A stretch of DNA of 64,000 nucleotides, from NCBI RefSeq assembly GCF_038087665.1, contig NZ_CP149925.1, forward strand, positions 2,728,870-2,792,869, written 5' to 3'. Positions 35,449-36,215 of this stretch are shown piece by piece. The notes under the pieces were generated by a model that worked only from the letters and a program-made list of their open reading frames with translations, had not been told where the DNA came from and made no database searches. Source of the stretch: Gallaecimonas sp. GXIMD4217 (GTDB lineage Bacteria > Pseudomonadota > Gammaproteobacteria > Enterobacterales > Gallaecimonadaceae). Numbering within the stretch: the first letter of the stretch is position 1; each line of letters begins with the position of its first letter. The position numbers and the translations under genes were made by a program.

Positions 35449-35524
35449 TGGAGCGGGAAACGAGACTCGAACTCGCGACCCCAACCTTGGCAAGGTTGTG
35501 CTCTACCAACTGAGCTATTCCCGC
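35449..35524 (-). tRNA. tRNA-Gly (anticodon GCC), copy 3 of 3 in transcription order
   Basis: 76 nt with encoded CCA. Acceptor GCGGGAA pairs with TTCCCGC; the D arm is GCTC/GAGC, the anticodon stem CAACC/GGTTG with loop TTGCCAA, and the T arm GCGAG/CTCGT with TTCGAGT. Sequence is identical to the copies at 35745-35820 and 35959-36034. It is followed directly by the terminator. Confidence 0.98.
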
Positions 35525-35616
35525 ATTCAACTTTTCGCGTAATGACTCCGCTTACTTGGCCATGCATGCTCAACCTGCTTGGTTGTGCTGCCGCCTTCCG
35601 ACTGAGCTATTCCCGC
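35525..35616 (-). repeat. 92-bp tRNA-Gly 5'-half repeat, unit 5
   Basis: Begins with the exact first 15 nt of the tRNA (GCGGGAATAGCTCAG), keeps CACAACC and GGTTG of the anticodon stem, but has AAGCA in place of the anticodon loop, an enlarged D region (GGAAGGCGGCAGC) and no T arm or 3' acceptor strand. Identical over all 92 bp to the unit at 36035-36126. It abuts the 5' end of the third tRNA. Confidence 0.9.
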
Positions 35617-35708
35617 ATTCAACTTTTCGCGTAATGACTCCGCTTACTTGGCCATGCATGCTCAACCCGCTTGGTTGTGCTGCCGCCCTCCGGCTGAGCT
35701 ATTCCCGC
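35617..35708 (-). repeat. 92-bp tRNA-Gly 5'-half repeat, unit 4
   Basis: Same layout as unit 5, with three base differences. It lies head to tail with unit 5 and follows a 36-nt spacer after the second tRNA. Confidence 0.9.
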
Positions 35709-35744
35709 ATTGTCGACCCGCCTTACGGCCAGTCTTTTCAATTT

Positions 35745-35820
35745 TGGAGCGGGAAACGAGACTCGAACTCGCGACCCCAACCTTGGCAAGGTTGTGCTCT
35801 ACCAACTGAGCTATTCCCGC
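35745..35820 (-). tRNA. tRNA-Gly (anticodon GCC), copy 2 of 3
   Basis: 76 nt, identical to the other two copies, with CCA encoded and full cloverleaf pairing. It is preceded directly by half-repeat unit 3 and followed by a 36-nt spacer (35709-35744) that shares most of its sequence with the 46-nt spacer after copy 1. Confidence 0.98.
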
Positions 35821-35912
35821 ATTCAACTTTTCGCGTAATGACTCTGCTTACCTGGCTAAGCATGCTCAACCCGCTTGGTTGTGCTGCCGCCCTCCGGCTG
35901 AGTTATTCCCGC
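35821..35912 (-). repeat. 92-bp tRNA-Gly 5'-half repeat, unit 3
   Basis: Same 92-bp layout, with several substitutions, including GCGGGAATAACTCAG for the tRNA start (one change in the D stem). It abuts tRNA copy 2. Confidence 0.88.
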
Positions 35913-35958
35913 ATTAGATTTTTGTTTGGACCCGCCTTGCGGCCAGTCTTTTCAATTT

Positions 35959-36034
35959 TGGAGCGGGAAACGAGACTCGAACTCGCGACCCCAACCTTGG
36001 CAAGGTTGTGCTCTACCAACTGAGCTATTCCCGC
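35959..36034 (-). tRNA. tRNA-Gly (anticodon GCC), copy 1 of 3
   Basis: 76 nt, identical to the other two copies. First intact tRNA after the promoter, preceded by half-repeat units 1 and 2. It is followed by a 46-nt spacer at 35913-35958. Confidence 0.98.
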
Positions 36035-36126
36035 ATTCAACTTTTCGCGTAATGACTCCGCTTACTTGGCCATGCATGCTCAACCTGCTTGGTTGTGCTG
36101 CCGCCTTCCGACTGAGCTATTCCCGC
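36035..36126 (-). repeat. 92-bp tRNA-Gly 5'-half repeat, unit 2
   Basis: Base-for-base the same as unit 5 (35525-35616). It abuts the 5' end of tRNA copy 1. Confidence 0.9.
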
Positions 36127-36215
36127 ATTCAATTTTTCGCGTAGCGACCTCGCTTGTTGGGCCTGGCCCGCTCAACCCGGGTGGTTGTGCCGCCTTCCTG
36201 CTGAGCTATTCCCGC
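36127..36215 (-). repeat. 89-bp tRNA-Gly 5'-half repeat, unit 1 (most diverged)
   Basis: Starts with the same GCGGGAATAGCTCAG, then GGAAGGCGGCACAACC and GGGTTGAGC; it lacks 3 nt relative to the other units and differs through its 3' part. First element of the transcript, about 32 nt after the predicted start site. Confidence 0.85.

Follow-up and report, generated by a model that had tools for sequence, protein, structure and literature searches.

The closest described counterparts of the sequences reported here are the RtT repeats (RF00391; rttR, tpr) of the E. coli tyrT operon, tandem repeats that lie in or beside identical tandem tRNA genes and that each contain an exact copy of one end of their own tRNA; in the K-12 annotation, rttR and tpr are found beside tyrV and tyrT. 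Other transcribed spacers of E. coli tRNA operons, e.g., 3′ETS-leuZ, act as sponges of small RNAs, and these spacers are not known to be built from tRNA. Pseudogenes and partial copies of tRNAs are also familiar, as in the Photobacterium Pro-His cluster. In Actinobacillus pleuropneumoniae, RNAs of the RtT family located upstream of Asn and Lys tRNA genes give signals on northern blots (PMC4986893), and rtT-like sequences within interspersed repeats have been reported (PMC2965389). In the open-license literature (open PMC papers), we found no description of repeats made from the 5′ half of a tRNA. Here, we describe such repeats in a tRNA-Gly operon of Gallaecimonas sp. GXIMD4217 and follow them through related genomes.

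Results

Layout of the tRNA-Gly operon

The analysis started from a 64,000-nt stretch of the genome (hereafter, the window), in which an earlier note had described three identical tRNA-Gly(GCC) genes interleaved with five repeats of the tRNA's own 5′ half. This description holds base for base. By ARAGORN and Rfam, the window has exactly three tRNA-Gly(GCC) genes, identical and on the minus strand, at 35959-36034 (the first in the transcript), 35745-35820 (second), and 35449-35524 (third), and sequence comparison delimits five 5′-half units on the same strand, at 36127-36215 (unit 1, 89 nt, the most diverged), 36035-36126 (unit 2, 92 nt), 35821-35912 (unit 3, 92 nt), 35617-35708 (unit 4, 92 nt), and 35525-35616 (unit 5, 92 nt). 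A unit is taken to start at the nucleotide matching tRNA position 1 and to end at the base before the next unit or tRNA. Two non-unit spacers complete the operon, one of 46 nt (35913-35958, minus strand) with a small hairpin, GACUGGCCGCAAGGCGGGUC, and one of 36 nt (35709-35744, minus strand) with nearly the same hairpin; along the minus strand from 36215 to 35449, the order is thus unit 1, unit 2, tRNA, 46-nt spacer, unit 3, tRNA, 36-nt spacer, unit 4, unit 5, tRNA. Units 2 and 5 are the same in sequence and unit 4 differs from them at three bases, which bears out the view that the units are homogenized; a small correction to the earlier description concerns unit 1, which is 89 nt long and clearly diverged (79% over the match).

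At a threshold of at least 13/15 matches, the first 15 nt of the tRNA have eight occurrences in the window, all on the minus strand and none on the plus strand, namely the three tRNAs and the five units, and 20 shuffled windows (one strand searched) gave no match. As had been noted, the copy is exact (15/15) in units 1, 2, 4, and 5 and has one change (14/15) in unit 3, the anticodon-stem bases CAACC...GGTTG are retained in 5/5 units, and the units end without the 3′ part of the tRNA: a search of 35300-36400 for the final 13 nt of the tRNA (at least 10/13) finds the three real tRNAs only. A search of the whole genome (one contig, 3.35 Mb) at E ≤ 0.001 returns five unit copies, all in this operon. 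Neither ARAGORN nor Rfam assigns any of the five to a tRNA or another family, and the units lack the cloverleaf with T arm and acceptor stem of a functional tRNA gene. At gathering scores, Rfam has no family for the units in the window or in seven related loci, and at E ≤ 10 the only matches within 35200-36400 other than the tRNAs are sub-threshold ones around the terminator. An assembly or sequencing artifact, for which identical tandem units would be a classical collapse site, is far-fetched here to the point of being negligible: the genome is a single contig, the units differ from one another in a phased way, and the same design is present in many other genomes (see below). Elsewhere in the window, an RpsF leader (RF02893) is found at 12473-12558 on the minus strand, at 38 bits against a gathering score of 37.

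RtT repeats carry the 3′ end of the tRNA and three of their four copies follow the last tRNA gene, whereas the window units carry the 5′ end and precede tRNAs. At its gathering score, RF00391 matches neither the window nor the seven related loci and finds three copies in the K-12 tyrT control; what the window units share with RtT is their placement among identical tandem tRNA genes, without the match to the model and without the tRNA 3′ end. RtT, brought up as the known 3′-end version when the units were first noticed, is best described as their mirror-image counterpart. Like tRNA pseudogenes, the units are derived from tRNA; unlike them, they begin sharply at nucleotide 1, their D loop is enlarged, and their 3′ half is new.

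The operon had also been credited with one promoter and one terminator. An inverted repeat resembling an intrinsic terminator, with 13-bp arms that include A and T runs, is indeed found at 35415-35443 (minus strand); it is not among the calls of a terminator scan. A consensus promoter scan found none for the tRNA-Gly operon. By eye, a likely promoter, TTGCAC-16-TACAAT followed by a GC-rich discriminator, can be read at 36254-36281 (minus strand), and the stretch TACAATGCGCTCCGCTGTCGGG / TACAATGCGCTCCGC also precedes the same operon in three congeners. Together, these two observations make a promoter common to the whole operon, and with it co-transcription of units and tRNAs, likely. The upstream neighbor of the operon is orn (oligoribonuclease; 36370-36927, minus strand; from the ORF list and relatives), and an ORF ∼1.7 kb past the terminator is, from its sequence, presumably queG-like, with three other likely genes of the ORF list between the two. 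The order orn, glyVXY, queG in E. coli K-12 is the same as around the window operon, and the K-12 glyVXY spacers are 36 and 35 nt long and contain no units. The glyV-glyX spacer of E. coli KE47 (locus L036) and TUM2805 (L038) measures 157 nt vs. the 36 nt of K-12. In these two loci and in that of Aeromonas caviae (L037), where spacers are longer, exact copies of the own 5′ end are found in the tRNAs only. The A. caviae tRNA-Gly array has seven genes in the stretch read, and one of its spacers contains a degenerate tRNA-Gly-like sequence with a CCA end (L037, 589-701).

Units at tRNA-Gly in related genomes

Within the genus, the window Gly unit matches 0/4 congener genomes. Three of them (loci L007, L008, and L010) have copies of the tRNA-Gly 3′ end in the Gly-operon spacers instead, and the fourth locus (L011) is interrupted by a contig end. 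In L010 (2600-3340), five tandem ∼138-bp repeats lie downstream of the last tRNA-Gly, each composed of the tRNA-Gly 3′ end and a terminator-like hairpin, an arrangement very like that of RtT at E. coli tyrT, at another tRNA. The earlier note had tied the possibility of neutral debris to units being unconserved in related strains and yielding no stable RNA; a lack of conservation is what is seen for the Gly units inside the genus, but the same design recurs in four other families and, within the genus itself, at tRNA-Lys. Collections of plasmids and phages gave 218 and 116 matching records, respectively, none of which covers >80% of the query; the best 20 of the 218 and the best 20 of the 116 look like tRNA genes, some of them in chromosome-sized records.

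When the orn-linked operon was read in relatives (loci for 30 of the matches), 5′-half units were found immediately ahead of tRNA-Gly(GCC) in another four families of the order, including those of Agarivorans (family f10) and Motilimonas (f13); the identification of our genera g10 and g13 with these names comes from loci L040 and L026, which are identical over the operon to the named L099 and L101. An Agarivorans-type unit is matched in 8/12 genomes of f10 and in 7/7 of genus g10. In f13, a query of a unit plus a tRNA matches 4/4 genomes, with matches covering the unit in 3/4; units are clear in G016 and G068, G040 has one match at a contig end, and G069 has none. A contig scan with the motif of the f10 and f13 units returned one stretch of Agarivorans sp. 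Toyoura001 and two of Motilimonas eburnea. An order-wide pattern (GCGG acceptor start, TAGCTCAG, an enlarged D-loop distance, and an anticodon-stem strand), which is blind to diverged units and to tRNAs that start otherwise than with GCGG, matched 16/394 genomes, compared with 0 for the reversed-pattern control. Two matches (G064, locus L112; G067, L114) were dropped because no tRNA lies ≤1.5 kb on either side, leaving 14/394 genomes from six genera and five families (f1, f6, f7, f10, and f13); besides these two, three loci of the new lineages were read (n = 5 in all), and units are present in each, i.e., in L102 (f7), L116, and L117 (both f6). A covariance-model search (model R1) of 369 genomes of the class, run with strict filters and with no positive control evident in the sample, gave no match.

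The usual first bases of a unit are GCGGGAA in the window, GCGGCAC in f10, f6, and f7, and GCGGTAC in f13, matching in each case the acceptor strand of the lineage's own tRNA-Gly. Over 81 distinct units, the first 15 nt differ from the own tRNA at 0–3 positions (the collection script allowed up to 4); in the f6 genome G033, several units drift at the 5′ end (GCGACTC, GCGGTCC). The anticodon-stem strand, compared by eye, mostly tracks the tRNAs of the genome (CAACC or CGACC), and the unit interiors differ from family to family. In Agarivorans and Motilimonas, two operons, one linked to orn and one of the gly-cys-leu type, have units before tRNA-Gly; in the loci read, some with N-masked spacers, none was seen before the tRNA-Cys or tRNA-Leu of the latter. 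The gly-cys-leu operon of G033 has no units at all, which, together with the 35–36-nt spacers of the orn-linked operon in K-12, indicates that units are dispensable in general.

Half units at other tRNAs

The Gallaecimonas genome has 89 tRNA matches, and 20 stretches of closely spaced tRNAs plus the window operon were tested for copies of the operon's own tRNA ends (at least 12/15 matches, spacers up to 600 nt), using a test that recovers the RtT copies of E. coli tyrT. Own-end copies occur in 7/21 stretches. Copies of the 5′ end are found in the Gly, Lys, and Ala operons, with one further match in a His-Pro stretch, and the spacers of the Val(TAC), Gln, and Arg(ACG) operons (L133, L137, and L139) contain copies of the 3′ end of the respective tRNA; no stretch carries both kinds. 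Ends of tRNAs from other stretches, used as a control, gave means of 0–0.28 matches per tRNA, and the window spacers contain three own-end copies vs. a mean of 0.28 for the tRNA ends of other operons. Among the matches listed for three other genomes (31 operon loci), own-end copies were found in 4/11 for congener G001, 3/10 for Agarivorans G013, and 2/10 for G033, with foreign-end means of 0–0.53. The same genomes contain arrays without half units (11 Lys and six Asn-Met in G033; six Lys, four Asp, and five Asn in G013), and half units are therefore not an automatic product of large, identical tandem tRNA arrays. Two other loci may be mentioned for their layout. The Arg-His-Pro stretch at 3240200-3241300 of the Gallaecimonas genome (L144) has one own-5′ match and, in its His-Pro spacer, a piece resembling the anticodon arm of tRNA-Pro, and locus L180 of G033 is an array of >20 tRNA genes in which Glu and Val alternate for the most part, a few genes are for Ala, and the spacers are very similar in length.

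In the tRNA-Lys operon (1030500-1034100 of the Gallaecimonas genome, L132; also L152, L153, and L154), a 122-nt 5′-half unit precedes tRNA-Lys. It is present in 4/5 genomes of the genus, our own included, and in a search of 119 genomes of the order its core (≤3 mismatches) was found in the genus Gallaecimonas only. The Ala-Glu operon of the same genome (2041100-2043000; L134 / L163) has two units before tRNA-Ala that contain the tRNA-Lys unit core; one opens exactly as the 5′ end of tRNA-Ala and the other nearly so, and a 9-bp closing helix is predicted in both. Judged from these sequences, the Ala unit looks like one that moved between operons and adopted the local tRNA end. The analogy with tpr also raises the possibility that units are peptide genes, and an open Arg-rich frame can be seen by eye in some copies of the Lys unit; one of the five copies in the Gallaecimonas genome has a 25-nt deletion and the core variants fall at codon positions one, two, and three, and this reading is disfavored.

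Conservation between species

Past nt 15, the Agarivorans Gly units are on average 77–93% identical (ten pairs, five genomes), compared with 40–64% at orn fourfold sites and 32–60% in the non-unit spacers of the same operons; these constraint figures, like those that follow, are identities without a fitted model, in which unit pairs of the same species are non-independent and ∼9 nt of the unit tracks the tRNA. For the tRNA-Lys unit, the 50-nt core that follows the tRNA-derived part is identical at 47–49/50 positions (one unit per genome, four species), vs. 58–75% at orn fourfold sites (six species pairs). Recent transfer of the whole unit is an unlikely cause of this identity, since only 29–30 of 52 positions in the last third of the unit are identical between our genome and the others. 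The Agarivorans Gly units and the tRNA-Lys units of Gallaecimonas thus look constrained, which suggests that they matter to the cell and, for those of Agarivorans, sets them apart from tRNA pseudogenes.

These data bear on the main rival to a function of the units, namely that unequal recombination among identical tRNA genes leaves truncated copies that are homogenized through their matching ends and discarded by the precursor. Such a by-product would account for the identity of units 2 and 5, for unit copy numbers that differ among species and operons, for congeners that have 3′-half remnants in place of 5′ units at tRNA-Gly, and for the drift of the first 4 nt of the unit, which are unpaired in the Agarivorans fold. 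Homogenization within one genome cannot, however, produce conservation between species above that of fourfold sites and sister spacers, and the large tandem arrays without half units likewise count against a neutral origin, which we hold to be unlikely, if still a serious contender. For the class of units as a whole, the recurrence of the design in four other families, the tRNA-Lys units in the genus, and conservation above the neutral yardsticks make neutral debris the disfavored reading; the window's own Gly copies lie outside that comparison.

Folding of the units

The first 20 nt of the unit are predicted to pair with its last 45 nt more than in units with a shuffled remainder, on average in 6/6 groups; lineage by lineage, the observed mean is attained by a fraction of 0.04–0.29 of the shuffles, a trend only. 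In Agarivorans, this fold-back consists of two short helices, of nt 5–9 and nt 14–20 with the tail, in which 467/504 cells are paired over 42 units, compared with 11–54% in controls with slid partners, although the tested structure was derived from such units, which favors the former figure; changes on the tail side opposite positions 15–19 almost always retain the pair. In Motilimonas, three units have TAGTTCA for TAGCTCA, and the tail TGAACTA matches in two of them and forms a G-U pair in the third; a C-G to U-A change lies inside the helix, and 16/16 units are paired at that position. Permutations in which tails were swapped between units did as well as the own tails in 16/5000 cases for f6, 55/5000 for Motilimonas, and 410/5000 for Agarivorans and were uninformative for the window and f7, with relatedness uncorrected. 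Given 11 of the Agarivorans units, or the Motilimonas, f6, f7, or window set, RNAalifold selects the fold-back; for all 42 Agarivorans units and for all lineages pooled, it prefers a local hairpin resembling a D arm. Covariation over 14 f10/f6 units is weak, with shuffles as good as the real units in 19/500 cases for paired cells, 60/500 and 70/500 for double changes, 407/500 for pair types, and 198/500 for the score. Taken together, the data from Agarivorans and Motilimonas support a fold-back onto the tRNA-like 5′ end, and those from the other lineages do so weakly. A general rule that the tRNA-derived end is always paired within its unit was rejected over 18 sets of 5′- and 3′-half units: Gln alone reached 0.035, with 0.16–0.65 for the other 3′-half sets and 0.10–0.76 for the 5′-half sets, under a fixed 85-nt cut that shortens longer units such as RtT.

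It had been proposed that GCGGGAA in the units competes for the 3′ strand of the next tRNA. Energy models agree that the 5′ strand of a unit is able to take that strand, i.e., competition is thermodynamically possible, and in one pair-probability prediction it would win in the window. The probability of the invading pairing is 0.92 in the window, 0.98 in f7, 0.68 in Motilimonas, 0.30 in Agarivorans, and 0.13 in f6; with shuffled remainders, the corresponding values are 0.88, 0.90, 0.70, 0.66, and 0.33. Compared with shuffled units, natural units favor the tRNA cloverleaf by 2–5 kcal/mol on average in three of five lineages (the window, Agarivorans, and f6), a gain within 1–2 SD of the shuffles, and hardly at all in Motilimonas and f7. 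It should be noted that the folding models leave out tertiary structure and co-transcriptional folding.

The same calculations bear on a bistable switch in the maturation of tRNA-Gly, in which the unit 5′ strand would pair either with the unit tail, leaving the tRNA free, or with the tRNA 3′ strand, with the tail then on the tRNA 5′ strand and the tRNA trapped. Mutual complementarity of the four strands is built in, the two states differ by no more than ∼1 kcal/mol in the window (two units) and by no more than 2 kcal/mol in Agarivorans (eight units), and in the pair-probability test the trapped state prevails in the window, f7, and Motilimonas. Shuffled units, however, compete about equally or better, the changed tails in Motilimonas match their own unit rather than the downstream element in 2/3 cases, co-transcriptional folding should favor the free tRNA, and no ligand or trigger is known; a switch is, in our judgment, quite improbable. 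The units may bear on how the precursor is cut. Every unit ends in an A/U-rich stretch, just before the tRNA. Direct entry of RNase E on tRNA precursors requires adjacent single-stranded segments (PMC3985628), and we infer that the A/U-rich unit end could serve as such an entry segment.

Discussion

Our preferred reading, which we hold tentatively, is that the units are structured, tRNA-derived spacer RNAs of a polycistronic tRNA precursor that are kept matched to their tRNA by recombination and that probably act in cis; a role in the folding and cutting of the precursor appears the most likely one. By origin, a unit would be a tandem tRNA copy that lost its 3′ half and retained the 5′ end along with the leader found ahead of each tRNA in the array. 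Recombination through the tract thereby common to units and tRNAs (the leader plus the first 15 nt) would copy, delete, and homogenize the units and, in doing so, keep the unit 5′ end equal to the tRNA of the operon. The 3′ tail of a unit, which is the leader of the next tRNA, is predicted to be complementary to the unit's own tRNA-like 5′ segment, and the unit would close as a hairpin that leaves an A/U-rich single-stranded linker before the tRNA. Such a hairpin may prevent pairing of the surplus tRNA 5′ strand with the 3′ strand of the neighboring tRNA, an idea that the pair probabilities for the window and f7 speak against, and the units may space the tRNAs for RNase E and RNase P.

Stable small RNAs that are cut from the precursor and act in trans, with the tRNA 5′ half as a seed or as a mimic that binds protein, would be another use of such sequences. 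The mirror-image counterpart, RtT, is classed among the small RNAs in the K-12 annotation, RNAs of its family are visible on the northern blots from A. pleuropneumoniae cited above, and the Agarivorans units are compact and constrained. The unit interiors vary between families, however, and a common unpaired seed was not noticed by eye, which leaves a trans-acting role improbable. The units resemble the 3′ETS-leuZ type in being spacer RNA of a tRNA precursor, and those of Agarivorans also reside in a gly-cys-leu operon.

Extending the cis reading, the 5′-half-tRNA unit could be an unnamed class of RNA, a selected hairpin of a tRNA 5′ strand and an anti-tRNA tail that stands before tandem tRNA genes in at least five families, controls the folding or cutting of the precursor, and is held in register by recombination, with 3′-half units such as RtT as its mirror image. 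This generalization is more doubtful than the cis reading itself. Even so, tRNA precursors may contain, in the 5′-half units, an RNA component that has been overlooked. The spacers in tRNA operons tend to be regarded as waste; those described here are recurrent, derived from the operon's own tRNA, and, where orthologs exist, conserved beyond synonymous sites. With them, one can test whether tRNA maturation is governed by selected RNA elements in precursor spacers; they also provide a comparative context for the RtT repeats of E. coli and a natural system for studying how a tRNA gene and its partial copies remain matched in sequence.
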